Assembly (NCBI RefSeq): GCF_018128285.1
Contig: NZ_CP072380.1
Coordinates: forward strand, 930,001-994,000
DNA: 64,000 nt
Origin: Atopobium sp. oral taxon 416
GTDB lineage: Bacteria; Actinomycetota; Coriobacteriia; Coriobacteriales; Atopobiaceae
Reading direction: 5' to 3'
Shown here: positions 36,432 through 50,769 of the stretch, in pieces
How the letters are laid out: the number at the start of each line of letters is the position of its first letter
Numbering within the stretch: position 1 is the first letter of the stretch
The notes under the pieces: model-generated
Told to the model about the DNA's origin: nothing
Database searches by the model: none
What the model saw: the letters and a program-made list of their open reading frames with translations, nothing else
Made by a program: the position numbers and the translations under genes

Positions 36432-37856
36432 ATGCATGTTAACACACAGCCGCTTATTCAGGGAGAATTGCTTGATACAAGATCAGAAGATCTTCGTGCT
36501 GATACCTATGATCTGACTGATTCAATTTCTGATATACAGCTCCTGAGTGGCATCTTAACATTCTCATCAGGTCTGCCCTCCTTTACCCAGGTTGGTATGA
36601 CGCAAACGGCCGTTAAAGAGATCTCTGTGGGCACATCATCTAGACCTGCCAAGCGCAAAGTCACTGAATACTTCTTTAAGGGAAAGCTGAATCGTCTGAA
36701 CGGACAGCCGATCTAGTGCAGCTTCTGTGGCCAGGAGACGGTGTATAACGGCACAGCCGAGGTTGACTTGAAACACATTGCTATGGGAGGTATCTATACT
36801 CACATCGTTGTATCCAAGCAGCGAGCACTCTGCCAGAATAAGAACTGTGCGGCTAGCACTTATACAGAACCCGTAGATTTCAAGGCTCAGGGACATCTGA
36901 TTAGAGCTGCTCTTGAGAACTATACATGCGATCTGCTTTACTTTTAACTGACAGTGAAGGAAATATCCATCATTGTCGGTTTTAAGCAAGAATAGCGTCA
37001 AGGGAATCGATAAGAAGCGTCTTTGGGAACTGTATACCGTTAACGGTAAAGGTAAGCAACTGAAGAAGCCTACAGAATACTCAAAGTATCTTGGCATTGA
37101 TGAATTCCTTCTTCATAAAGGCCATAGATGCGCTTACGTTGATCATGGACATGAAGAGCGGAGATGTGCTGTGGCTTGCCTGTGGCAAGAAGAAACAGAC
37201 TGTATATGACTTTATTGACTGGATCGGCATCGACTGGATGAAAAACGTCAAGGCTGTGGCCTGTGATATGAACAGTGACTTTGAAGAAGCTTTCAAGAAA
37301 CGCTGTGAATGGCTAGATATTGTCTGTGACCATTCCCATCTGATCAAAAACTTCAATGACAAGGTGGTATCAAAAGTCCGTAAAGAGGAACAGAAACGCC
37401 TGATAGAAGAAGGCAATACAGAAGCTGCTAAAGCGGGCAAAATCATTGCCAAAGGAAGCGATCTGTTCAAAAAGCCAAAGGTGAAGCAAAAAAGCAGGAA
37501 TTGAAGAAGAATACAAGAAGCTGTTGGATGAAAACAAGCTGTTCTTCACCATGGATCTGGTAGAAGAACAGCTTAATAAAGCATACAAAGCAAATACCGA
37601 AAGAGGCATGAAGATTCATAGTAACCGGATCATACGCACCTGCAAAGCAACCAAGAACAAGCATTTCATGTGGTTTGCCAAGCTGCTTAAGAACCACATG
37701 AAAGGAATTATCTCTCATGCACGAGTTCATATCTCATCTGGCAAAGTTGAAGGAACCAACCAGATGATCAAGACACTGAGACACAAAGGATACGGCTATC
37801 CGGATGATGAATATTTCTTCCTGAAGATCATTGATGCCAGCAGGAAATTCTCATGA
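36432..37856 (+). mobile_element. ISL3-family element, A+T-rich, transposase broken
   Basis: Successive plus-strand frames give an ISL3 transposase: zinc-ribbon region CSFCGQE...CQNKNC (36718-36860), catalytic part YLGIDEFLLHKGHR, VIMDMKSGDVLWLACGKKKQ, AVACDMNSDFEEAFKKRCEW, DHSHLIKNFNDKVVSKVRKE, and the end SGKVEGTNQMIKTLRHKGYG. In-frame stops and shifts occur at about 36716, 36945, 37135 and 37500. The stretch is visibly more A+T-rich and uses A-ending codons, unlike the host genes, suggesting origin from a low-G+C Firmicute. Confidence 0.88.
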
Positions 37857-37899
37857 CCTCTGAGGTTATCTATCAACAGGAATTATGACTGAACCAAAG

Positions 37900-38413
37900 A
37901 TAATAGGTTCTGCTATGCAGACTTTAGGCTATATAGGTATAGCGAAGCGCCCTTAAGGTCACATAAGACCCACACCTCTCATCTATGCGCTAAAGCGTTG
38001 CAAGGAAGCCTTCGACCATAAAGGGCCTTGCCTGTGCACTTTCAGCTGAAAAGGACATCGAGTCCAGGAAGGAATCCGACCGCTCAAAGGTAGAGCATCC
38101 CTTCCTTATCGTGAAGCGGCGCTTCTGCCCCTTAAGGAAGCGCTACAGGGGGATAGAGAAGATGCCTGCACACTCGAGTCTTTTTCGCCCTTGCAAACCT
38201 TACCCATGTGCATCTTTTGCCAGCAGGCTGCACTTCCCGGCTCCCAGAGTCGCTTGATCCGTCTTGAGGCCTTCTTGCGGTGCATGGGGCAGGATGGCGG
38301 CTCCTGCACGTGCTGGATGAGCATCCTTCCCTGCTTTCCCGCATGCCGGCCTAGAAAGGCCGATGACCGATCATTTCTGGCGCGTCATGGGGCATTAATC
38401 ATCGTTTCCCTAG
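37900..38413 (+). mobile_element. Right part of an IS5-family copy
   Basis: From about 37900 the sequence matches the right half of the full IS5 at 45752 (ATAGGTTCTGCTATGCAGAC onward) to the terminus ATTAATCATCGTTTCC with CTAG at 38410-38413. The left half is lost where the ISL3 element lies. It marks the left border of the defence-type island. Confidence 0.85.
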
Positions 38414-38448
38414 GACGTCAAGAACGTAAAGCCGCTCACGGTCGGAAA

Positions 38449-38479
38449 GGGGCCGCTCGGGGAAGTCCCGAGCGGCCCC
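38449..38479 (-). terminator. G+C-rich perfect hairpin at the end of the helicase operon
   Basis: GGGGCCGCTCGGG-gaagt-CCCGAGCGGCCCC, a 13-bp perfect stem, followed on the minus strand by TTTCC. It lies 164 bp past the helicase stop and directly inside the IS5 border. Confidence 0.65.
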
Positions 38480-38522
38480 GATTCCCTCCCGCCGCGGCCG
38501 CAGCCAAACCCTCCCGCGGCCG

Positions 38523-38563
38523 CCCTCCCCGCCGTCAGGAACACCTAACGACGGCGGGGAGGG
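38523..38563 (-). terminator. Second G+C-rich perfect hairpin
   Basis: CCCTCCCCGCCGTC and its exact complement GACGGCGGGGAGGG around a 13-nt loop. With the preceding hairpin and a GC-rich tandem between them it forms a dense structured zone after the helicase gene. Terminator function is probable; a T-run is lacking. Confidence 0.5.
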
Positions 38564-38642
38564 AAATGAAGTTCGTCGTTTCTCGCAAGGAAGTTTGTAC
38601 GCTCGTAGTTGCCTCAGAAAACCAACATCCGTTGTTACCATC

Positions 38643-41579
38643 CTACTGATGCTCACGCTCGATTTTCAAGAATCCCTGGTAGAAGGCATCTGGAAAAGCG
38701 AATGTCCTGTCACGTCCTCCAAGCCTGACGACGATGCGGGTTCCCTCGATGCTTTTGATCCTGCCGTTTCCGAAAGCCTTGCTGCCGATAACGTCCCCCG
38801 CGCCAAGCGAGTCGATTTTCGCTTCGAGGTCCCGGCGGGCTTCCTCCCGCGCCTTTCGCTGGGCACGTTCCCGTTCGGCCTTCTCACTCTCCGTCTCGAC
38901 GGGACTCGCGGGAACCGAGGAGACCGCGAACGTCACCTTTGAAGGTTTCCCATCCTTTGAGGAGCGCTCCTCGGTGATGCTCTGCACAACGTAAGTGTCA
39001 GCTCCTCCAGTCGGCCTCGCCTTGCCGTCAGATCCGAGGCGCTCGTCCTGGAGCCGCATCTGCTGGTAGTCCGTCTGGGTCAGCTCGGTGTCAAAGAGGC
39101 CCACCTTCCGGTCGTACTGGTGACGCTCGATGCCCGTGTAGGAGAGACTCGCGTCCTCGTATCTGCGGAACTTGTACACCGCGTCGTTCATGAGGGCGTC
39201 GTTGAAGACACCGAGCGAGACCAGGAGCTCGAAGTCCTTCACCTCGAGTCCCGTGACCTTCTTGAATAGGCCGGGCTCGAGCTGCGTGATCACGTCCTTC
39301 AGGCACTGCTCGCGGAAATCGGTGAGGTACATGAAGACCGGAATTCTCGTGGCGAACTTGATGAGCTTCTCCTGGACCTCGCGGCGCTTGGTCTTGTACT
39401 CCTTCTCCTCGTCGGAGAGCTCCTTCTTCTGCTTCGTGGTGAGCTCGCCGCCCTTACGCTTCGCCTTCTTCACGGCCTCCGACTTATTGATGATGGTCTT
39501 GATGTCGTCGTTGAGGCTCCTGAATCCCTCGATGCTCATGAGGGCCCTCATCGCGTCCTCGTTGGCGAGGAGCCTTCGGAGCGTGTCATTGTCAACGTTG
39601 ACGAGGAGGGCACTCTCCCAGCGACGTGCGAGGAGCGTCGCCGACGTGCCGGCCATCGCCATGTCGAGGATGTCGGCGGCGTCGACCTCGCGCATCGCGC
39701 TGCCGTCGTAGGCGAGCACGGGCAGGAAGTTGATGAACTCGTCCACCTTCTGCTCGGGACTCTCGTCGTTCACAGACAGGCGGCAGCTGTAGTCGCACAC
39801 CATGGTGAGCGCCCGGTCGAGGGCGAAGTCGAAAACGTAGCACTCCTCCTTGAGGTCCTGGACGTGTCCCTCGTCGTCCCTGGTGGTCCAGGGGCTCTGG
39901 ACGCGGAACGCAGTCTGGAAGTACGTCTCGGGGCTCCTGAGGTTACGCAGCATGAGTACTCCGGACCAGGGGCGTACCGTGACGCCTGTAGTGAGCTTGC
40001 CGCATGAGAGCGTGATGGTCTTTGTGCGAAGCGGGTCACCCATGGCCTCGCGGACCGGTTTTATCGCCTCGACGCCCATGCCGGCACCGGGTCCGGCCGC
40101 GACGATTACCTCGTAGTCGTGGAAGAAGGTGTTCTGCCTCTGGGCAAGCAGGTTGGCCATTGCCTCGCACGAGGAGACGTTCGGAAGGAACCACAGGGTG
40201 TGCGTAAGCGTCGAGAGCAGCCTCGTGTCGCTGAACGGCATGGGCGGCTTCTCGGCTCCGAGCCTAAGGTCGTCTGCCGCCGTCTCCTGCGACGACCCAC
40301 GGATCAGGTCGAGCCACTTCTGGACGTACTCCTCGTACACGAAACGTGCCTCGCTGCCATGCCCCTTGGCGGAGAAGAACAGGTTGAGGTCGAACTCGTT
40401 GAACTGACCCTGACGGGCTATCCGGGTGATGGAGTCAGGCACCTTGTAGGTCATAAGCACCATACGCGGGAGATTGGCGTAGGGGTTGTGCGGCCCCTTC
40501 CAGTCCCTCTTTGCCTCCTGCTCGTCGGAGTAGGTCCAGTTGAACACCTGGTCCTCGATGAACTCCCCGGAGTTGAGCGCCCGGAACGGGGTCCCCGATA
40601 GGTAGAGGTAGAAGCGGGACTGGATTGGCAGCCAGGTCTCGTCGAGCTGGTTGCCCGACGACGCCTCCCGTGCCGCCCTCGAGTCGTCGTCAGCAGATGG
40701 GACATAGTCGTCGAAGTCGTCTCCCATATCTTTAGCGCTCTCGAAGAGCCGCTTGGCGGAGTCCTTCCAGGCGCCGAAGTGATACTCGTCGAACACGACG
40801 AGGTCCCAGTCCTCCAAGTGAACCCACTCGTTCCTCGGCTTGATTCCGCCATCATTGCCCGGCTGTAGGAAGTCCTGGAAGGAACCGAAGCAGACGATGG
40901 GCCTGGAGGAGTCGCAGTCCTCGTACCGACCAGCGTTTCTCGCGACGAACTGCCATCCCTCAAAGTCGACATGGCTCTCCAGGTCGTCCTGCCAGGCGTC
41001 CTCCACCGCGGGCTTGAAGGTGAGAACGAGAACCCTCTTCATGTCCATGCTCTTCGCGAGCTCGTAGGTGGCGAAGGTCTTTCCAAACCTCATCTTCGCG
41101 TTCCAGAGGAACCGCGGGACTCTCTGGGACCCCTCCTGCTCGCAGCGCTCGAAGTAACCTCGCGTCATGTCGACCGCGCGCCTCTGCTCGGGGCGCATCT
41201 TGAAGTCCTCGGTCCTCTGCGACTCGTAGTCCTTGCGGTCCCTTACCTCTAGCCATGCGTTGCGCACGTCGTCGACGGTGCATTCGTACCACTCGCCGCC
41301 GACGCAGCGGAAGCCGTTTCGCTCGAGGCGGCGGTGGACGTCGTGATCCATGAAGGTGCTGCCGTCGTCCCTCACAGCGCTCTCGTTGAAGACAATCGTA
41401 TAGGGCTTCCCTTTCCCCGGCTGTATCACGGGGTGCTGCTCGGCGACGCGCTCCTCGGCGGTGCGCGTCGTGTAGCCGACCTTTAGAAAGCCCTTGTATT
41501 TTGGATTGTGTTCCTCATAGGCGTAGATTACTGGCTTAATTTCTGGGCGCTGAGGAAAGAGCACCTGTGGCATCCTCAT
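38643..41579 (-). CDS. GIY-YIG/T5orf172-like nuclease domain fused to a DExH helicase (restriction-type)
   Basis: 978 aa. Residues 15-120 look like a T5orf172/MUG113 branch of the GIY-YIG nuclease fold: VIYAYEEHNPKYKGFLKVGY, then TTRTAEERV (catalytic Arg) and GGEWYEC. Residues 130-620 are an SF2 helicase: Walker A AKMRFGKTFATYELAK, DExH box VVFDEYHFGAW, LYLSGTPFRA (motif III), and a C-terminal RecA region with SCGKLTTGVTVRPWSGVLML and AFRVQSP. A charged coiled segment (KKAKRKGGELTTKQKKELSD) and a small C-terminal domain GSKAFGNGRIKSIEGTRIVV follow. It starts directly after the methyltransferase stop, so it is the likely restriction subunit of this locus. Cleavage activity is inference. Confidence 0.85.
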   Translation of the reverse strand: MRMPQVLFPQRPEIKPVIYAYEEHNPKYKGFLKVGYTTRTAEERVAEQHPVIQPGKGKPYTIVFNESAVRDDGSTFMDHDVHRRLERNGFRCVGGEWYECTVDDVRNAWLEVRDRKDYESQRTEDFKMRPEQRRAVDMTRGYFERCEQEGSQRVPRFLWNAKMRFGKTFATYELAKSMDMKRVLVLTFKPAVEDAWQDDLESHVDFEGWQFVARNAGRYEDCDSSRPIVCFGSFQDFLQPGNDGGIKPRNEWVHLEDWDLVVFDEYHFGAWKDSAKRLFESAKDMGDDFDDYVPSADDDSRAAREASSGNQLDETWLPIQSRFYLYLSGTPFRALNSGEFIEDQVFNWTYSDEQEAKRDWKGPHNPYANLPRMVLMTYKVPDSITRIARQGQFNEFDLNLFFSAKGHGSEARFVYEEYVQKWLDLIRGSSQETAADDLRLGAEKPPMPFSDTRLLSTLTHTLWFLPNVSSCEAMANLLAQRQNTFFHDYEVIVAAGPGAGMGVEAIKPVREAMGDPLRTKTITLSCGKLTTGVTVRPWSGVLMLRNLRSPETYFQTAFRVQSPWTTRDDEGHVQDLKEECYVFDFALDRALTMVCDYSCRLSVNDESPEQKVDEFINFLPVLAYDGSAMREVDAADILDMAMAGTSATLLARRWESALLVNVDNDTLRRLLANEDAMRALMSIEGFRSLNDDIKTIINKSEAVKKAKRKGGELTTKQKKELSDEEKEYKTKRREVQEKLIKFATRIPVFMYLTDFREQCLKDVITQLEPGLFKKVTGLEVKDFELLVSLGVFNDALMNDAVYKFRRYEDASLSYTGIERHQYDRKVGLFDTELTQTDYQQMRLQDERLGSDGKARPTGGADTYVVQSITEERSSKDGKPSKVTFAVSSVPASPVETESEKAERERAQRKAREEARRDLEAKIDSLGAGDVIGSKAFGNGRIKSIEGTRIVVRLGGRDRTFAFPDAFYQGFLKIEREHQ

Positions 41580-43124
41580 CTACTCCATCTCTGGTATCGA
41601 ACTTTCTATTGTCTCGATTTCCTTTTCATCCAACCCGTACTTCTCATACAACTGGGCGTCCGTCCATTTGTGAGATATGTCCGGATCAGGAACAAATTCG
41701 AATGCCTTCGGAGCCATATCTTGTGTTGCGGTTCGTGTCGCAATCATGTACCGAACAAATTTAGTCTTGAGATATGAGACTAAGTTCTCTGCCTCATCAA
41801 GCTCATCGCCCAAAATTATGACGTTGTAGGTATTTGAGCTGCACGACCCAGGCTCGCTGATCCTCAGCTTTCCGAGAATCGAGCTACCGGGATTGCCCGC
41901 ACGAGGAATCAATACCTTATATTTTCCGACATCCTCGGAATGGCGGGTAACGTTTTCAGGAGATATCCAACACTCACCATGTGACACATAAACTTTCACG
42001 TTGAATTTTTCGGACTGGGTCTTGCGCACCGGATACGTCGAGGCACCGTCGGCCGTCTGCAACTTACCGACATTCCCATTCCATGTTACGCGAGTGTGGA
42101 ATCCGAAATACCGACCGGCATTCAACCTCTTTGAGAGAGGGACTTCTCGACGCGAGCGAACCTTCTCGAGAATCGACAGCTGTTGAGTTGTTCTTATGAA
42201 TGTTTCCATTCCCTCTTCAAGAAGTGGCCTTATAGACTCGCTTGTGTTCACTCCATCATGACTCACGACCTTACAGAGGCCATGACTATCTCGAGTCCAC
42301 AGGAAGTAACAGACACCACCCTTTATCTCCACTCCCGGGAAGCAGTCAGAAGCAGACGGGAAATCATGGAGCACTCGAATCCTGTCGTCATGCAACATCG
42401 TGGATCGGAATTCATCAAGACCACGGCCGCCCATATACCAGCGAGCCGGAATGATCATTGTCAAAAACCTGGGATTTAGCCTCTTAGCTTGCTCTACAAA
42501 CTTCTGATAAATGGGCATAGCGCTAGCGCTGTTTCCACCGTCACTCAACTGGTACGGCGGGTTGCCTACTATCACATCAAACTTCATCTTGAAGATGTCC
42601 TCTGGTCTCTTGGTATGGATGAACTCATACGCATGACTCTCTAGGTCCGCTGAGCGCCGGTACTCCTTCTCCGATGCCCCACAGTAGACGCACTTGCCAT
42701 CCTTCCAGGTGTGTCGGATGCCGCGGAACCGGACGTTACCTTCTTCATGGTCGAATAGGGAGACCGAGAACCTGCCGTTTGCATACTTGGAGCAATAGAG
42801 GCTCCTCCTGCTCATGAGGGAAGTCATCTCGGTGATTGCGATTCCGAAGAGCTGCTCGTGCATTATGTGGTCGACTCGCTCCTGGAGGTCCGGGTAGATA
42901 GGCGCGAGCCCCTCTATGAACCTTTTCGCCGCCTCCCGGAGAAACACGCCCGACTTGCAGCACGGATCGAGAATCCGGACGTTAGGGTCCTCCCACAACT
43001 CCTTCGGGAGCATGTCGAGGACACGGTTCGCGAGCTCCGGTGGGGTGAACACCTCGTCGTTGCTGAGGTTGGCGAGACACGTTAGGACATCGGGGTTATA
43101 TGTCCTCTCGAGAAGGCTAGCCAT
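41580..43124 (-). CDS. N6-adenine DNA methyltransferase (Eco57I-like), NPPY-containing
   Basis: 514 aa from ATG 43124; the frame extends to 43253 inside the preceding gene, but GGGAGG before 43124 and the homologous start MASLLERTYNPDVLTCLANL fix it. Motif X/I: NDEVFTPPELANRVLDMLP and VRILDPCCKSGVFLREA (about 50-66). A CVYCGASEKEY zinc-knuckle-like insert is followed by the catalytic motif IV, FDVIVGNPPYQLSDGG (about 185-200). The C-terminal 250 residues should be the target-recognition part. It overlaps the first methyltransferase gene by 8 nt and abuts the helicase gene. Confidence 0.88.
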   Translation of the reverse strand: MASLLERTYNPDVLTCLANLSNDEVFTPPELANRVLDMLPKELWEDPNVRILDPCCKSGVFLREAAKRFIEGLAPIYPDLQERVDHIMHEQLFGIAITEMTSLMSRRSLYCSKYANGRFSVSLFDHEEGNVRFRGIRHTWKDGKCVYCGASEKEYRRSADLESHAYEFIHTKRPEDIFKMKFDVIVGNPPYQLSDGGNSASAMPIYQKFVEQAKRLNPRFLTMIIPARWYMGGRGLDEFRSTMLHDDRIRVLHDFPSASDCFPGVEIKGGVCYFLWTRDSHGLCKVVSHDGVNTSESIRPLLEEGMETFIRTTQQLSILEKVRSRREVPLSKRLNAGRYFGFHTRVTWNGNVGKLQTADGASTYPVRKTQSEKFNVKVYVSHGECWISPENVTRHSEDVGKYKVLIPRAGNPGSSILGKLRISEPGSCSSNTYNVIILGDELDEAENLVSYLKTKFVRYMIATRTATQDMAPKAFEFVPDPDISHKWTDAQLYEKYGLDEKEIETIESSIPEME

Positions 43125-43785
43125 TCTTCGAAACCTCCCTGTAGTCAACAGGCGGATACTCTCGAATCGAGGCGGGGATGAGCCCGTCAATCTCAGAGTC
43201 GTATTCCCATCCGGTTTGAAAAAGGCCGAGCTGGTCGCCCTGCTTCGTGTCACCGCCAGCCATTAGCTCGTCGAGCCGATAGTCCTTCCTCTTCACGAGG
43301 TCCCCGGTCACCATCGACCACTCTGAGAAGATAATTGGAGAGCCGTCGTCCTGCACCATCGTGAGGGCGTCCCCGCACAGGACATTCTTTTCGAGGACGT
43401 AACGGATGGCGTCAAGGAACGCCTGCTCCGCCTGCTTGCCAATCGCGTCCCGGGCGGCAGCCTCAACGATGCGTAAGAGCCTCTGCCGGCACTCCGCCAC
43501 GTTGTCGGTCATGATGTCCACACCATAGATGCTCGAGACCGCAACGAACACGTAGCGCATGTACTCCTGGGGGCTCCGTGAGTATCGCTTTGCCACAACC
43601 GCAAGCTTCCGCCTTAGCACCTCGGCGAGGAAGTTACCGTCACCGCAAGCCGGCTCGAGGAACCGGGAGTCGATGCGCTCGGTCTCTTGCTTCACCAGGT
43701 CGAGCATGGCGTTGACCTCGCGCTCGTTGGTGAAGACCTCGCCGTGTTCCTGTACACGCTCGCGCGACTTTACCTGCCCTGCCAC
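43117..43785 (-). CDS. Companion methyltransferase-like protein with SAM motif but no NPPY
   Basis: 222 aa from GTG 43785 (GGGAGG upstream). The N-terminus RERVQEHGEVFTNEREVNAM and motif I FLEPACGDGNFLAEVL (about 42-57) are those of N6-adenine methyltransferases. No NPPY/DPPY catalytic motif follows; instead there is VLCGDALTMVQDDGSPIIFS and EWSMVTGDLVKRKDYRLDEL. It may form a heteromer with the larger methyltransferase encoded next, sharing or regulating SAM binding. It starts 1 nt after the RHH gene stop and overlaps the next gene by 8 nt. Confidence 0.8.
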   Translation of the reverse strand: MAGQVKSRERVQEHGEVFTNEREVNAMLDLVKQETERIDSRFLEPACGDGNFLAEVLRRKLAVVAKRYSRSPQEYMRYVFVAVSSIYGVDIMTDNVAECRQRLLRIVEAAARDAIGKQAEQAFLDAIRYVLEKNVLCGDALTMVQDDGSPIIFSEWSMVTGDLVKRKDYRLDELMAGGDTKQGDQLGLFQTGWEYDSEIDGLIPASIREYPPVDYREVSKNG

Positions 43786-43786
43786 G

Positions 43787-43993
43787 TTAGCGCCTCCCGG
43801 AGGTGAGCTCGTTGATAACGCACGAGCGCAGGAAGGCCGAGAAGCTTACCCCACGTAGACGCGCCGTCTCAGTCGCCGCCTCCTTGAGGTTCTTGGGCAC
43901 ACGAAAGGTGACGGCGGTCTGGTCGCCCTCGGCTAAGAAACCCTGAATCTGGGTCTCGCTAGCCCCGCCCTCGACAAGCTCGGAGTAATTCAT
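43787..43993 (-). CDS. Ribbon-helix-helix (CopG/Arc-type) regulator
   Basis: 68 aa from ATG 43993, with GAGGAG 6 nt upstream; a longer frame to 44026 runs across the probable promoter. The C-terminal half reads TAVTFRVPKNLKEAATETAR followed by LRGVSFSAFLRSCVINEL, a typical ribbon then two helices. It is the first gene of the four-gene operon and lies next to a TGCA-flanked dyad. It probably controls expression of the methyltransferase and helicase genes, like control proteins or antitoxin-type repressors. No toxin gene is adjacent. Confidence 0.75.
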   Translation of the reverse strand: MNYSELVEGGASETQIQGFLAEGDQTAVTFRVPKNLKEAATETARLRGVSFSAFLRSCVINELTSGRR

Positions 43994-44021
43994 CTGTCTC
44001 CTCAGGGTATAATCAACAAAA

Positions 44022-44036
44022 TGCAATAATTATGCA
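44022..44036. promoter_or_regulatory. Possible RHH operator
   Basis: TGCAATAATTATGCA, an A+T-rich dyad with TGCA half-sites, 29 bp before the RHH start in the divergent intergenic region. It is a natural candidate for autoregulation of both the operon and the divergent gene. Confidence 0.45.
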
Positions 44037-44155
44037 GTAATCATACCACGAGCGACAAGCGCGTCGCTCACGAGGTGTCATCGGCTGGCCCAGAGAGAGG
44101 GATGACTTGGTAAAGACCGCGCAAATGGACAGAAAAAAAGATCGAGAAAGCCGCC

Positions 44156-47100
44156 GTGAACCGCGTGTGCGACCTTATCCAGCAGTGCGATACTATCGAT
44201 GATAAGCTAAAAGAGGGTGATAAGAACATCCTCATAGACGGTTTCCTCGATCTGTACAGCTCACCGGAGCAGAGGGTCGAGAACCTGCGTGCGGAGATTC
44301 CCGTTCAGGTCAAAGGTACGATGGGGAAGCTGAAGCCCAACAAGCACGGTGTGGTGAAGTTCATGGCACGCGCCAAGGCACTCAAACGCTACAGGGACGT
44401 GTACTACGGCGTACTTCTTTTCGTTGTCGGCGTGAACAAGAACTCCCGTCTTGGCGAGGATGTCTTCTTCGCGCAGCTCTTGCCCTACAACATCAACTGT
44501 GCGCTGTCAAAGACATGCCCAAATCAGGAGAAGACGTCGGTACCTATCAAGCCATTCCCGACAAACCCGAAAGAGATGACAAGGATCATCACGGCGCTCA
44601 ACGCCAACCGGAAAAAGCAGATGAAGGCTAAGGTCGTCGCATACGACTTCGATGGAGATACAAAAACCCTGCCAGAAGATATCAACTCTATATCAGTCTC
44701 GACCCAGTTGTACAAAGGCGAACGTGTGACAACGATAGCCGGTTTGGAAAACGCCTACGTCTACGGCAAGGACATGGAGGGCCAGCTCGTCGTGCTCGGG
44801 AAAATTGAGGACGTGGCAATGTTCGCCAGAGGTGCTGAAGTCAATGTTGCGTCCGGGGACTTCGAGCTGACGACGCTGCTGATGCTGGGCGACCATCGTG
44901 AGGGCACCTACATTGAGTTCGAGGGCGTGAGCATGATCCTGCGCGATGACCACAGGGTCACGCTGAGCTTCGGCATCAAGGGCCCGATCCGCAGGAGGTA
45001 CAACACGGCCCGGTTCGTCCACGAGTTCATGCGCACGGGCGAACTAAGGGTCGAAGGGAAGACGTTATTGCGGACCAAGATCGAGAGTGACCCGGATCTC
45101 GAGATGCGCCTGGACGAGGACGTGTGTGCATGCGGCGAGTTTGTCGAGACGCTGGGCGCGCTCAGTATCGCCGTCGACTGGGATTCTGCTGACATGACGA
45201 CAAAGGAGCTAAACGATCTCGCCCTCATGCACCGCCTGCTGGTGGAAGGAAAGCCATGGGCCGGCCAAGATATAGAGTCGCCGATTGTCCACTTCGACAT
45301 CCAGGGATGTAGGGTCTATGCGCTCGTCCGGAAATGTGGGGATGGCAGCTACGCCTTCACGGGCCTCGACTCCGACCAGCTGTGCTTCTCCTTCTCTTCG
45401 CCAGATGAGAAGGAGCCGGAGGTGAGGGGGCCGTTCGAGCCGGTTCCCGCTGCGATGGTGCTTGGCAAGGACGACCTTCAGAAGGCTGTGAACCTAGACC
45501 TGGGGAAGTTCGATGCGCAGTTCGACCGTTTCCCGGTGACCGTGGGCAACCAGACGCCGCTCAACCAGAAGCTCCTGGACATGCTCACGGCCTATGACGA
45601 GGGTGCCAGGCAGCCGCAGGGCCTGCTCGCATGCGCGGCGGTACTAGCGCGAAGACTGCACGAGTTCGACCAGAAAAGCCAGACCTACCTGCTCAACCTG
45701 TTGCAGACGATAGGGCGCAAGCGTGAGTTCAACGAGGAGGAGAAGTCCGCGCTAGGGAAACGATGATTAATTCGCCTCGATGAGGTAGCTGGGGCCACAC
45801 GCTGTATGACATCGGCTCAAAATGTCTCGAACCACACAGTGCCCATATCCACATAGATGCCTATCTGCCTTCTGGATATGGTATAGCTACATCCACGTAT
45901 TCCAGCATATCCAAAAGGAAGATATGGACAGATAGATGAGCTTTGAAGACCTTAAATCCTAAGGTCTAAGGAGAAAGACTGGGCGAGAGGCACTCCTGGA
46001 GCGGATGGATGCAATCGTTGTGTGGGATAGCTGGGCTCTCAGACGAGGGAACTTAAAGATGCTATCCTGGATTGTCACTCCTGGTAGCGCTTCTGTGCAC
46101 GCAGACCTCATGCAAGCGCAGGTGCCAGATGCGACGACACTTGCGAAGATGCGCCATAGCCTTAAAGCGAGAGGAGTTCGGCAAAGCTTGTGCTTTGCGC
46201 CTGAACTTAGAGCTCGAGAAGGCAGGGATCACGGCGCGGGGTGGCTCCATGGTGGATGTGACCTTCACCTGAGCCTTAAAGCTCCACAAAGAGCAAGGAC
46301 CACGCACGTAACCCTTAAGGCGCACCAGTCCAAGAAAGGGGGAGCCTGGCGTATCGGATACAAGGCGCATATCGGCGTGGATGCCGCAGGTGGCCTTGTG
46401 CATGGTGTGGAGACGATCGCTTAGAATGTATCCGACATATCCTGTGGCACATGCACTCGTTAAGGGAAGATGATAGGTTCTGCTGCGCAGACTTTAGGCT
46501 ATATAGGTATAGTGAAGCGCCCTTAAGGTCACAGCAGACCCACACCTCTCATCTATGCGCTAAAGCGTCGCTTAAGGAAGCCTTCGACTAGAGAGGGCCT
46601 TGCCTGTGCACTCTTCTCCGAAAAGGGTATCGAGTCCAGGAAGGCATCCGGCCGCTTAAAGGTAGAAGCATCCCTTCCTTATCGTGAAGCGGCGCTTCTG
46701 CCCCTTAAGGACACGCTACTAGGGGATAGAGAAGATGCCTGCACACTCAAGTCTTTCTCGCCCTTGCAAACCTTACCCATGTGCATCTTTTGCCGGCAGG
46801 CTGCACCTCCCGGCTCTCAGCGTCGCTTGATCCGTCTTGGAGCCTTATTGCGGTGCATGTGGCAGGACAAATGTAAGGATGGCGACTTCTGCACGTGCTG
46901 GATGAGCATCCTTCCCTGCCTTTCCCGCATTCCGGCCTAGAAAAGTCGTGTGGTCGGTCCCCTTTAACACGTTATGGGGCATTAATCATCGTTTCCCTAG
47001 AGGACATTGCTCTCGAAGCCCCCGAGCTATACACGAAAGCTGCGGCCTATGCGCTCATGGGCTATTCGGAAATGGCGCAGGTTTGCCTCAGTCGATGCTC

Positions 47101-47173
47101 GGAATCCGAGCGCAGGCAGATAGAGGGCTATCCGATCTCGCGGTTCTTCGTGAGCGAAAGGCCACGGAACTAG
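44156..47173 (+). pseudogene. Large DUF4365/PD-(D/E)xK-like protein gene interrupted by IS5
   Basis: The first part, 44156-45754, encodes 533 residues; the remainder resumes at 47001 after the IS and gives EDIALEAPELYTKAAAYALM and more, ending at TAG 47171-47173. Removing the IS and one CTAG joins the frames exactly to a 590-codon gene. The N-terminus resembles DUF4365-type nuclease-like domains: ILIDGFLDLYSS (D28, D32) and EIPVQVKGT (Q51, K53) fit the D...(D/E/Q)xK pattern. The rest is unrecognised. No ATG starts this frame. ATG 44125 would join if an A7 run at 44133-44139 lost one A, giving MDRKKIEKAAVNRVCD. It may be an effector of the adjoining restriction-type operon; this is inference. 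Confidence 0.8.
45752..47000 (+). mobile_element. Full-length IS5-family element with CTAG target duplication
   Basis: CTAG at 45752-45755 and 46997-47000 flank 1241 bp with perfect 16-bp terminal inverted repeats GGAAACGATGATTAAT. CTAG is the usual target of IS5-group elements. The transposase starts about ATG 45936 (MSFEDLKS) and meets TAA at codon 9; later pieces include VPDATTLAKM and GYKAHIGVDAAGGLVHGV in other frames. It also lacks about 100 bp present in other copies (after GTGTGGGATAGCTGG). So ends are intact but the transposase is dead. Confidence 0.93.
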
Positions 47174-47442
47174 CTAACCGTTTGGGAACCTTTTCCAACC
47201 CACTCACCACTGCTCCGCTCCGGGCTTTTGCCGGACCGGGTCTTGCCACGGGGCTACACGCGCCCTGGAAGTTAACCTGGGCAGGCCGGGGTCCGCCCCC
47301 TTCTCAACGGCAAGGCAATACGTGACGAACATATGAAGAGACCCGACAGTCAAAATGCGCAAAAAGCGTGTACCAAAATCGCGTACCAAATGTGTACCAA
47401 AAGAAAACAGGCCACCAACTATGCTGATGACCTGGTCTTTTA

Positions 47443-47517
47443 TGGTGGGCGTTAGAAGATTTGAACTTCTGACCTCTTCCGTGTCAGGGAAGCGCTCTCC
47501 CCCTGAGCTAAACGCCC
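47443..47517 (-). tRNA. tRNA-Val (GAC), CCA encoded
   Basis: Minus-strand cloverleaf: acceptor GGGCGTT/AACGCCC, D-arm with AGCTCAGGGGGAGAGC, anticodon arm CTTCC-CTGACAC-GGAAG with anticodon GAC, T-arm CAGAAGTTCAAATCTTCTA, ending A-CCA. About 75 nt. Its 3' end faces the defence-type island, the side where tRNA-targeting integrases insert, but I found no second copy of the tRNA 3' end. The 270 bp between the island gene and this tRNA (47174-47442) hold no supported gene. Confidence 0.93.
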
Positions 47518-48484
47518 ATCTCCATTGTGCTACACCTGCGTAGCAGGTAATAGATTACGTGAACAGCAGCAAAATTACAAGTAGAAAATTGAAAGTGTTT
47601 TAATTACATATATTGAGCAGGTATTTTGAAAGAAGCGGTAGATTTCTGTCCCTCGTGCACTACCATAGCCCGGCTATTCTGACTCATCGCACTGTATTGT
47701 GCTGAGTCTTGCGTCAACTAAGGTATCTTCACAGCTGTAGCTGTAAAGACACGGTTGTGAGAAGAGCCATGAGACTTATGGCTGACAAGTACGAAATGCA
47801 CAAGCGATATGACAGATCGAGCCTTGCGAAAAGAAGATCCATTGAGCATGGGCTAGATTCAAAACACTCTATCTGTTCCATCGCAAAAGACTTTGATAGA
47901 GTACCCTCTACAGTGAAGAGAGAGGTTAGACACCACGTGGTCTACATAGTACCTAAGGGAGAGCCCGGAGAGCCAAAAGACAAAGACTGTCAAAGAGACC
48001 ACTTGTGGCAGCCACCGCAGTGTTGCTGCGGGTGTATGAGATACACAACAGAGGTATGCCACTACCGCATCCATGTAGCCTATATGGTGAAATACGCACA
48101 AACGCTTGCAGATGAAATGCGGCATCGATATGAGCGAAGAGGATACAGCGCACACAGTTGCCCACATACAAGATAAGCTCGCTTGTGGGCTTTCCCCTCA
48201 GCAGATAGCAACTGCCTCTCCTGTTCCAGTATCTGCCTTCACTATCTATCGCTGGGTCCACAGACGGTATGGCGATTATGTCTGCCGTGGACTTTAAGGC
48301 GATCTGTGGGCTATAGGTCCTAACAACACGCCTTTGTGCCCCGTATAACCACCCGTCCGAGCGCTTATAGTCGTTTCTGTCCTTAGGAGAGCCTGTGTTG
48401 GTGCCTGGGAGATAAATACAGCAGAAGGTCTTCAATCTGACAGCGAATGTATCCTTACACCTTTGTACAGACTATCGAAGTTTC

Positions 48485-49745
48485 GGTCGCGCCCGTAAAG
48501 TGGTGTAAAAGGTGGGCGAGCCAGAGGCTCGCCGCCAAGGTGTGCTCGCAGTCACCAAACAACGAGGACACCCAAGAGGACGGACATGGCTCGAATCAAT
48601 CTTGCACTGGACCAAGACGAGGTACTGGGGCTGCTTACCGACGGGGGGCGGGGACGCCTTCAGGCTGCTGCTCCAGGAGACGCTCAACGGGGTACTGAGG
48701 GCGAAGTCAGCCGAGCAGCTGTGCGCCCAGCCCTACGAGCGCGCCGACAGCCGCAACGAGACGAAGGCAAGGCCCCTCACGACCAGGGTCGCCACCATCG
48801 AGCTGAAGGTGTCAAGGCAGCGCAATGCCCCGTTTGAGACCCTCGTGTTCGACAACTACAAGCGCAAGCGAGGCTGCCCTTATGACCGAGATGGCCGAGA
48901 TGGCCGTCGCGGGCGTCTTTACAGTGAAGGTGGGCAGGGTCGTAGAGGAGGTCTGCGAAAGGTCGTTCTCCAAGCACTCCGTCTTTGAGGCTCACGCCGA
49001 GCTGGACCCCGCTATCAGGGCGTTTTGTGATTGGCCCCTTAAGGGCGAGTAGCCGTTCGTGATGGCAAACGCCACCTACCTCAAGGTCAGGGTCGACCAC
49101 CGCGTGAGGTCAAAGGCACTGCTAAGTCATCGGGGTCTCGCTTGCCGAGTCGCACACGGGACGCTCCTGGGTGGACTTCCTGCGCTCCCTCGTGGACGCC
49201 AGAGAGGGGCTCGTGGCGGCCACAAGGGAGGTGCTGCCCGGTGCCGCCTGGGCAGCGCTGCCAGGCCCACTGCTCGCGCAACGTGTGCAAGGCCACCCCC
49301 AAGGGAGTGTGCGCCGGCCTAAGGGGGAAGCTGGTCGAGAGGCTCAACTGCCAAGCGCACCGGAGGAGAGGCACAGGTGCGACGAGATACTGGCAGACTT
49401 GCGCGACGTTGCCTCAAGGGCGGTGAGGGTACTGATCGCCGCGATGCGCCTGTACATGAGGACGTCCAACTACCTGGAGAGGCTGAACAGGGAGATAGAG
49501 AGGCACGCCTGCTTTGTCGGGGTCTTCCCGAGTAAGGCGTCAGCGATCAGGCTGATCGAGTCGGTCCTTACCGAGGAGAACGAGTGCAGCTCGACGCAGA
49601 GGAAGAGCTACTACGGATAGGACTTACACACAGCTCCTGCAGGTGGAAGACGAGCTCGCAAAGATAGCGCGCAACCAGAAGGACATGGCGAAGGCGTAAG
49701 GCAGGGAACGCGACAGCGATTTTACACACGGATTCGGACTTGACC
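48485..49745 (+). mobile_element. IS256-family element with perfect 8-bp target duplication
   Basis: 1261 bp, closely similar to 9823-11087. Direct repeats GAAGTTTC at 48477-48484 and 49746-49753 are the target duplication, the right size for IS256. Ends start GGTCGCGCCCGTAAAG and, inverted, GGTCAAGTCCGAATCC. The transposase (MARINLALDQDEVLGLLTDG from 48586) is broken by frameshifts (one in a G7 run near 48644) but otherwise carries the same blocks up to NYLERLNREIERHACFVGVF. It sits inside the IS30 transposase gene. Confidence 0.92.
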
Positions 49746-49911
49746 GAAGTTTCAGCTCATATCTTTGAGGGACCACAAAGACTGCGACAATACCAAGCGA
49801 ACACTTGAGATGTTCTTTGAGTCTGTCGGAGAGCCGAGTTCTCAGATGAAGAGGTGCCAGGACACCTTTTCGAAGGAGAGGCTCAAGCAATCAGGCTCTA
49901 CTGCTGCGACC

Positions 49912-50769
49912 CTAGGGAAACGATGATCAATTCACCTCGATGAGGTCACTGGGGCCGCACGCTGTATGACATCGGCTCAAAATGTCTCGAACCACGCAAC
50001 TCCCATACCCACATAGATGCCTATCTGCCTGCGGATATGTTATAATTACAGCAACGTATTCCAGCATATCCAAAAGGCAGATATGGATAGCCTGATGAGC
50101 TTTTAAGACCTTAAATCCTAAGGTAAAAGGAGAAAGATCAGGCAAGAGGCACACCTGGAGCGGATGGATACAATCGTTGTGTGGGACAGCTGGATTGCAC
50201 TGGTAGATACCAGCTACCACTGACAGGCTCTTGTCAGGCATGTGCGCGCTGCAAAGACAAAGCTTAGGATGTATCTGCTACAGGTTATGTTTGGGCTCTT
50301 AAGACGAGGGAACCTAAAGATGCTATCCTGGACTGCCACTCCTGGCAGCGCTTCTGTGCACGTAGACCTCATGCAAGCGCAGGTGCCAGATGCGACGACA
50401 CTTGCGAAGATGCGCCATAGCCTTAAAGCGAGAGGAGTTCGGTAAAGCTTGTGCTTCATGACCTGGACTTAGAAGCTTGAAAAGGCAGGGATCACAGGGC
50501 GGGGCGGCTCTATGGTGGATGCGACCTTCACCTGGGCCTTAAAGCTTAACGAAGAACAAGGACCACGCACGCGACCCTGAAGCTCATCTGGCTGCCCACA
50601 TCTTCCTTTTGGATATGCTGGAATACGTTGCTGTAATTATAACATATACGCAGGCAGATAGGCATTTATGTGGATATGGGCACTGTGTGGCTCGAGACAT
50701 TTTGAGCCGATGTCATACAGCGTGCGGCTTCGCCGACCTCATTGAGCCGAATTAATCATCGTTTCCTTA
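49912..50769. mobile_element. Fold-back IS5 derivative with two left ends
   Basis: Begins with CTAG and GGAAACGATGATCAATTC (one change in the terminal repeat) and ends GAATTAATCATCGTTTCC then TTAG. About 175 bp at the right end (50590-50765) is an inverted copy of its own left end rather than the normal IS right end, so it has long terminal inverted repeats. The middle carries the IS5 transposase region with early stops (TTT TAA, TCC TAA). It interrupts the IS30 gene remnant. Confidence 0.82.

Follow-up and report, generated by a model that had tools for sequence, protein, structure and literature searches.

BrxR is a WYL repressor family found near many kinds of defence system, predominantly in Proteobacteria (PMC9122601), RptR is a small repressor encoded by the first gene of a restriction-modification (RM) operon that binds direct repeats over the -10 box, with 54 of 117 homologues adjoining Type I RM (PMC12255303), and the C proteins of Type II RM are operon-linked autoregulators of RM genes (PMC3874152). 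The Type ISP enzymes LlaBIII and LlaGI are described as one chain with an Mrr nuclease (PMC4666363). Here, we describe an operon of four genes, RHH (a ribbon-helix-helix regulator), MTA (a methyltransferase-like protein), MTB (a methyltransferase) and HEL (a nuclease-helicase), in a 64-kb stretch (the window) of the single-contig 3.0-Mb genome of Atopobium sp. oral taxon 416 (NZ_CP072380.1, positions 930,001 to 994,000). The explanation that we regard as best, and consider probable, is an ATP-dependent RM operon under its own repressor, with RHH and its operator as a portable header.

The four minus-strand genes span 43993-38643 with RHH first, and all of their reading frames are intact. An earlier note on this DNA had named five open reading frames (ORFs), these four and a divergent one at 44156-45766 on the plus strand, and had described tight coupling; the ORFs are where it placed them, and the coupling is borne out, with HEL and MTB abutting, MTB (from 43124) and MTA overlapping by 8 nucleotides (nt) and RHH and MTA 1 nt apart. 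The features of the operon are as follows:

38643..41579, minus strand: HEL, GIY-YIG (T5orf172-like) nuclease and superfamily 2 (SF2) helicase/translocase, 978 amino acids (aa) (ORF, alignment, model)
41241..41534, minus strand: GIY-YIG domain of HEL, residues 16-113, with invariant Y19, K33, G35, R44 and E96 (alignment, 84/84 rows; model)
39705..41204, minus strand: SF2 helicase region of HEL, about residues 126-625, with GKT, DEYH, SGT and Q555/R559/Q561 (alignment, Foldseek)
41580..43124, minus strand: MTB, Eco57I-type NPPY methyltransferase with a C-terminal variable region (Pfam, alignment)
42948..42956, minus strand: MTB motif I variant K[ST]G inside DPxxK[ST]G, with Lys replacing the usual Gly (84/84 rows)
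41775..42299, minus strand: MTB hypervariable region, ORF residues 319-493, likely target recognition domain (blockwise identity)
43117..43785, minus strand: MTA, S-adenosylmethionine (SAM)-binding and methyltransferase-like, with motifs X, I and II, no NPPY, and FxEW at the motif IV place (alignment)
43787..43993, minus strand: RHH, ribbon-helix-helix regulator, 68 aa, first operon gene (Pfam, model, fold matches)
44016..44033, minus strand: predicted RHH operator ATAATTATTGCATTTTGT (motif matrix)
44040..44048, minus strand: extended -10-like TGGTATGAT, directly upstream of the operator (sequence consensus only)

The RHH protein has a ribbon-helix-helix fold in its predicted structure, a monomer model with a pLDDT of 92 built on an alignment of 55 of 62 non-redundant proteins (two RHH rows, L258 and L261, hold an internal stop), which fits Arc (TMt 0.88) and CopG (TMt 0.85) over the RHH core. 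Pfam searches of the 55 members matched DUF6290 in 49 and CopG_antitoxin in 37, and found no WYL match. The family occupies 108 places in 73 genomes of a class sample of 296 Coriobacteriia genomes; in a phylum sample of 396 genomes it was found in 13 at E<=1e-8, all within the order. Three RHH genes of the family were found in the present genome, each heading one of three copies of the enzyme. A recognised RM or defence gene directly follows RHH in 94 of the 108 places (82 of the best 89 by E-value and 12 of the last 19), an absolute count rather than an enrichment over the rate at which defence genes follow random genes. The exceptions among the best 89 are L209, L215, L245, L268 and L271, where the next gene is unrecognised, and L220 and L223, where no more than a fragment of a B-type gene remains; among the last 19 they are the unrecognised L316, L325 and L331, and L328, L330, L332 and L333, where the RHH match is itself weak or absent. 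At L220 and L223 the fragment is followed by what looks by eye like a tetracycline ribosomal-protection gene.

Next genes in the 82 recognised places comprise 27 HKD-Snf2 helicases, 17 HsdM, 10 B-type and 5 A-type members of the MTA-MTB-HEL family (types described below), 7 GIY-YIG PDC-S14, 5 HsdR, 3 BREX-like (L254 counted so by inference from its neighbours) and 2 GmrSD genes, with one each of Type IIG, Type III Mod, 5mC methyltransferase, PDC-S54, DUF1016 and HARE-HTH, the last two counted as restriction-type. These classes were assigned by the author, with cluster representatives scanned against PADLOC or Pfam and the remainder related to representatives by BLAST. With near-copies removed, and L268 taken out of the count, an RM or defence gene stands next to RHH in 57 of 62 places; the following gene lies -60 to +20 nt from RHH in 75 of 87. 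As RHH relatives head many unrelated phage-defence systems in related bacteria, they suggest a common switch.

An 18-nt motif, ATTTGTATTGCATtTcGc, was found upstream of RHH starts without prior alignment, its first base at a median of -38, and scored 957.8 against 436-464 in six mononucleotide-shuffled sets (3 restarts each, 12 for the real set). An element centred on GTATTGCA precedes 54 of 62 non-redundant RHH starts at a matrix score of >=8, where 0.33 are expected from surrounding sequence, the matrix having been trained on the same loci that it scores; in a separate half-split test, 28/31 and 22/31 exceed the 99th percentile of shuffles. The pattern TA[AGT]AAT lies within 75 nt upstream in 46/62, by eye mostly directly before the motif. 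A strict pattern of -10 box plus core gives 48 matches in the 296 genomes, 38 of them directly before an RHH gene; ten are listed without an adjoining RHH, and no significant RHH match was found at the five of these inspected. Because the reversed control gives 22 matches, no claim is made for sites acting in trans. In the window, the site at 44016-44033 (minus strand) is the best-scoring of the 64 kb and holds or borders the half-site-like GCATTT (44019-44024) and GCATAA (44030-44035), a pair 11 bp apart preceded by TGGTATGAT. The TGCA dyad that had been seen in the promoter gap is a real feature, redescribed as a tandem element at 44019-44035, 3' of a -10-like box. Likened to the RptR repeats that overlap the -10 box, a site between -10 and start codon fits repression, and the sign of regulation is predicted from this position.

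An RHH gene that is an antitoxin or plasmid-mobilisation remnant, lying beside defence islands by chance, would explain its Pfam names (DUF6290, CopG_antitoxin, NikA-like) and the antitoxins among its structural matches; we judge this improbable in view of the tight spacing to the next gene, the RM or defence identity of that gene in most places and an upstream element common to differing partners. We read RHH as an auto-repressor cassette that can be carried from one defence operon to another, with a role that would be like that of BrxR and RptR in another protein family. On a tree of 61 RHH proteins (68 columns, few forks resolved), partner type changes 32 times, against a minimum of 6 and an average of 37.4 with shuffled labels, so the header appears to have been exchanged between systems often, with a little clustering left. 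The gene had been listed in the earlier note as a regulator, but that RHH and its operator form the more unusual part of the locus had been missed.

HEL shows the marks of a nuclease joined to a translocase. In GIY-YIG nucleases a conserved Tyr, a conserved Arg and a metal-binding Glu have catalytic roles, and Y19, K33, G35, R44 and E96 of HEL are invariant in all 84 alignment rows. The model has the order beta-beta-alpha-beta-alpha in this part, and Pfam T5orf172 matches 22 of 30 alignment members, the window's own HEL not among them; the earlier GIY-YIG/T5orf172 reading of HEL is supported by the invariant residues and by the matches of these relatives. Conserved motifs and Foldseek helicase matches support the SF2 translocase fold; helicases dominate the whole-HEL Foldseek matches, which thereby do not probe the GIY-YIG part. 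HEL residues 917-973 form a possibly tudor-like C-terminal stretch with matches elsewhere in the class, and many HEL relatives are without it. At L055 (11968-12651) a stand-alone T5orf172 GIY-YIG gene (E 4.1e-13) lies between MTA and MTB.

MTB is of Eco57I type by Pfam (E 2.6e-36) and thus shows both marks of an Eco57I-type N6-adenine methyltransferase, the Pfam match and NPPY, with NPPY, H181, C188 and C191 kept in 84/84 rows (NPPYQ in the window). Its mechanical ORF is 41580-43253; since many relatives begin at a Met matching 43124, the start at 43253 probably lies too far upstream. Averaged in blocks of 25 residues, with gaps taken as differences, pairwise identity falls from 0.55-0.77 to 0.03-0.36 over residues 319-493, which is probably the target recognition domain. 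MTA reads LEPACGDGNFL at motif I in the window, with E44, P45, C47, G48, G50 and F52 in 84/84 rows, and is homologous to the MTB N-terminus (hhalign probability 97.4). The sequence [DNS]PP[YFW] was found in 0/84 MTA rows; FxEW (E in 83/84) takes the place of motif IV, only about 65 residues follow, and MTA is apparently a non-catalytic methyltransferase partner. A SAM motif without NPPY in MTA, and NPPY in MTB, had both been recognised earlier. The "split methyltransferase" named with them does not apply in the window, because MTB has its own SAM-binding and NPPY motifs; splitting is seen in relatives. PDB sequence searches with HEL, MTB and MTA, singly and as profiles, found no restriction enzyme beyond weak matches of MTB to BrxX/methylase (best E 0.015) and of MTA to methylases (E 0.074 and 0.09).

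In Type IIS systems, each strand of an asymmetric site can have a modification enzyme of its own, and an MTA that is itself active would give such an arrangement. Its intact motif I and homology to MTB are what such an enzyme would show, whereas the missing NPPY, the FxEW and the short remainder of the chain are not, and in B-type relatives the MTA-like domain (MTA') shares a chain with the NPPY half of the other methyltransferase, in the manner of a partner and not of an additional enzyme; we hold this arrangement to be improbable. Somewhat less unlikely, though still doubtful, is a division in which MTA supplies SAM and the Lys-bearing MTB only NPPY and DNA recognition, the half-sites meeting in trans. 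The canonical motif I of MTA, DPxxK[ST]G in all MTB rows and the B-type loci, which keep a KSG half and an NPPY half on separate chains, are consistent with it; MTB, however, still has motifs X, I and II beside NPPY in one chain, and the MTA' of B-type loci has the degenerate motif I (LEITCGEAPF), so the canonical copy is not constant.

A HEL match was found in 62 of the 296 class genomes, in six of these via the C-terminal domain only, and at least 591 HEL relatives occur in named genomes. The best 80 of these, which were examined, carry titles from Clostridia, Bacteroidales, Chloroflexi, Proteobacteria, Patescibacteria, Verrucomicrobia and others, and their loci hold MTB in 75/80, MTA in 68/80 (two of these matches, L127 and L157, being probably MTB's own motif and several partial, with some loci ending at a contig edge), RHH in 1/80 and DUF4365 in 0/80. 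From 44 class and 80 named-genome neighbourhoods, with 5 doubly counted loci removed and all three genes above score limits, 83 complete MTA-MTB-HEL sets were obtained, all co-directional. MTB and HEL are more than 100 nt apart in 19/83; among the wide gaps inspected, three (L046, L103, L132) contain what is left of a broken MTB, and most of the others contain differing genes, with two like pairs (L130/L149 and L161/L165). MTA-MTB-HEL is thus a widespread three-subunit RM layout; as RHH is absent from most relatives, it is not needed for RM function.

Relatives divide the enzyme differently. A-type loci have three separate genes. B-type loci (L039, L067-L072) have a helicase with the KSG SAM half at its C-terminus and the NPPY half on another chain. 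In L039, L068 and L070 that half was seen to follow an MTA-like domain in the same protein, and in L067 it forms a chain by itself. C-type relatives (L073, L076) have helicase and methyltransferase in one chain. We read the three types as one enzyme cut at different places, which argues for a complex of subunits. The genome of the window holds two further copies, at G000:C1:486240-488822 (L038) and G000:C1:675454-677400 (L039); one is A-type and the other B-type, and a separate RHH gene accompanies each. Viral contigs (L034-L037) and phage records from human faeces (PV036449.1, MT835565.1) also carry the operon or its helicase, so the operon may travel with phages.

In the mechanism that we propose, MTB, guided by its C-terminal recognition region, would methylate an adenine within an asymmetric site and would require MTA, a partner subunit that binds SAM and is without NPPY. 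HEL would join the MTA-MTB complex and, at unmethylated sites, the SF2 motor would translocate and the GIY-YIG domain cut. Close to the transcription start, immediately 3' of the -10 box, the RHH protein would bind GTATTGCA-type elements and repress RHH-MTA-MTB-HEL, so that restriction would stay low as long as the repressor is neither outrun nor removed. Together with the operator, the RHH gene would form a portable header before many unrelated defence operons in bacteria of this order. Complex formation, methylation, cleavage, RHH binding and the direction of regulation are all inferred from sequence. It is also conceivable, if tentative, that RHH and the GTATTGCA operator make up an order-wide switch, shuffled onto about ten kinds of restriction or anti-phage system in Coriobacteriia; the similarity of their operators may allow cross-regulation among the systems of one cell, of which there are three here.

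Several observations weigh against parts of this explanation. Only 8 of the 19 most divergent RHH places, which lay outside the training set, reach the motif threshold, and the strict -10 plus operator pattern fits 0 of this genome's three sites. Every Foldseek E-value for RHH exceeds 1, owing to the very short chain. The RHH tree shows slight clustering of partner types, as few changes being reached in 2/200 shuffles, and RHH is rare with this enzyme, with one occurrence in the 80 named loci and, in the class neighbourhoods, only four A-type loci besides the window. The HEL of the window falls under the Pfam cut-off for ResIII, as well as having no T5orf172 match. The invariant Lys in MTB motif I is unusual and may bear on SAM binding.

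The divergent gene and its surroundings comprise the following:

44156..45751, plus strand: DUF4365-like divergent gene, first part, interrupted, outside the system (weak Pfam match, relatives)
45752..47000, plus strand: insertion sequence within the DUF4365-like gene, with transposase remnant ORF 46005-46424 (terminal inverted repeats, CTAG at both edges)
47001..47173, plus strand: DUF4365-like gene, last part (61% identical over 51 aa to the C-terminal end of relative L168)
37897..38413, no strand given: partial second copy of the same insertion sequence, left border of the island (direct repeats D1, D5-D7, D9, D11)

The earlier note had joined this gene to the operon as one five-gene system. 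The ORF at 44156-45766 matches Pfam DUF4365 at E 0.0007, under the cut-off, and the N-terminal segment common to its relatives lies outside the main frame in the window. An insertion sequence with inverted ends, whose transposase remnant matches DDE_Tnp_1 at E 0.00021 (also under the cut-off), breaks the gene at 45752, and its last codons, recognised by their match to L168, its nearest relative, resume at 47001. A relative was found in 8 of the 296 class genomes, the present one included; no DUF4365 match was found in the 44 class neighbourhoods (L034-L077) or the best 80 named-genome loci, and a search of plasmids for relatives gave no match. Thus, as far as examined, the divergent gene stands beside the operon in no other neighbourhood, an outcome that the earlier note had named as refuting its reading. 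A single system of five genes, with the DUF4365 protein as a second nuclease, would account for the intergenic region common to both and for relatives that adjoin RM genes (an Eco57I-type methylase and BsuBI/PstI nuclease at L169, a 1040-aa N6 methylase at L168), but is very hard to reconcile with this distribution and with the broken state of the gene, and we consider it highly unlikely. The gene is a decayed neighbour and not part of the RM system; because some relatives adjoin other RM genes, it may be a roaming island gene. At L169 and L170 a DUF4365-like gene lies directly 3' of an Eco57I-type methylase and a BsuBI/PstI-type nuclease gene. Insertion-sequence remnants surround the island at 36432-37856 and 45752-50500 (repeats, and transposase-like ORFs by eye), and a tRNA-Val lies at 47443-47517; a terminator scan found none. 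The same insertion sequence stands on both sides in the same orientation, and a composite transposon carrying the whole island was considered and rejected, the right copy being inside the DUF4365 gene.

Little is known of how bacteria control many defence systems together, and two precedents, BrxR and RptR, are mainly proteobacterial. A predicted 68-aa repressor and upstream element before Type I, Type III, Type IIG, GmrSD, BREX-like, HKD-Snf2 and GIY-YIG systems would make coordinated control testable in Coriobacteriia, and the element is a sequence handle for finding further defence operons. If the order-wide switch is real, removal or titration of a single RHH protein by a phage or incoming element would set free several defence systems at the same time. 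The operon itself indicates an ATP-dependent RM enzyme that is widespread, whose subunits have been re-split freely and in which one methyltransferase partner is apparently not catalytic.

Compared with known systems, the enzyme is closest to Type II and IIG models. In the PADLOC search that had been proposed for these proteins, the Type IIG model PDLC03626 (1359 aa) is matched by HEL over residues 146-800 (E 5.7e-28) and by MTB over 1010-1359 (E 2.9e-38); proteins of six relatives were also scanned, and the B- and C-type ones match PDLC03626, PDLC03375 and PDLC03390. PADLOC-DB 2.0.0 thus places HEL, MTB and the B and C relatives under Type II and IIG, and MTA makes only partial matches to other PADLOC methylase models (best E 9.4e-12, 42 bits). 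PDLC03626 has cutting and methylation in one chain, as do L073 and L076, whereas here they are on separate chains. The matches and motifs uphold the earlier proposal of a restriction-type island that combines a nuclease-helicase with two methyltransferase-like proteins, and its misfit to the standard layouts of Types I, II and III also stands; "undescribed" is only partly apt, since PADLOC models cover the pieces, so the RM part is a layout inside a known kind and not a new kind. Among the papers listed in literature searches (REBASE not included), no description or biochemistry of the MTA-MTB-HEL layout was seen. Type I RM has HsdM, HsdS and HsdR, whereas no separate specificity gene is among the four operon ORFs, and a Type I model is not the best PADLOC match of HEL or MTB. 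The SF2 translocase fold is a likeness to Type ISP enzymes, in which, however, nuclease, helicase, methylase and recognition form a single polypeptide with an N-terminal Mrr (PD-(D/E)XK) nuclease; here there are three separate ORFs, a GIY-YIG/T5orf172 signature and the added MTA, and phmmer and profile searches of HEL gave no match to LlaBIII or LlaGI.

For the regulator, no description of RHH regulators of RM or defence operons was seen among the papers listed in literature searches, and by its RHH-type Pfam and fold matches the protein lies outside the WYL and RptR families. Of the regulators cited at the outset, BrxR is likewise a repressor near many defence systems but a multi-domain WYL protein, whereas a 68-aa RHH protein stands here directly beside the defence gene; RptR is a four-helix protein of another fold, acting at TAGCTA sites in Gammaproteobacteria; and C proteins are helix-turn-helix activators or repressors. 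Set beside these systems, we take the locus to have an ordinary purpose and an unusual layout, with an auto-repressor drawn from a defence-wide regulatory habit of this order.

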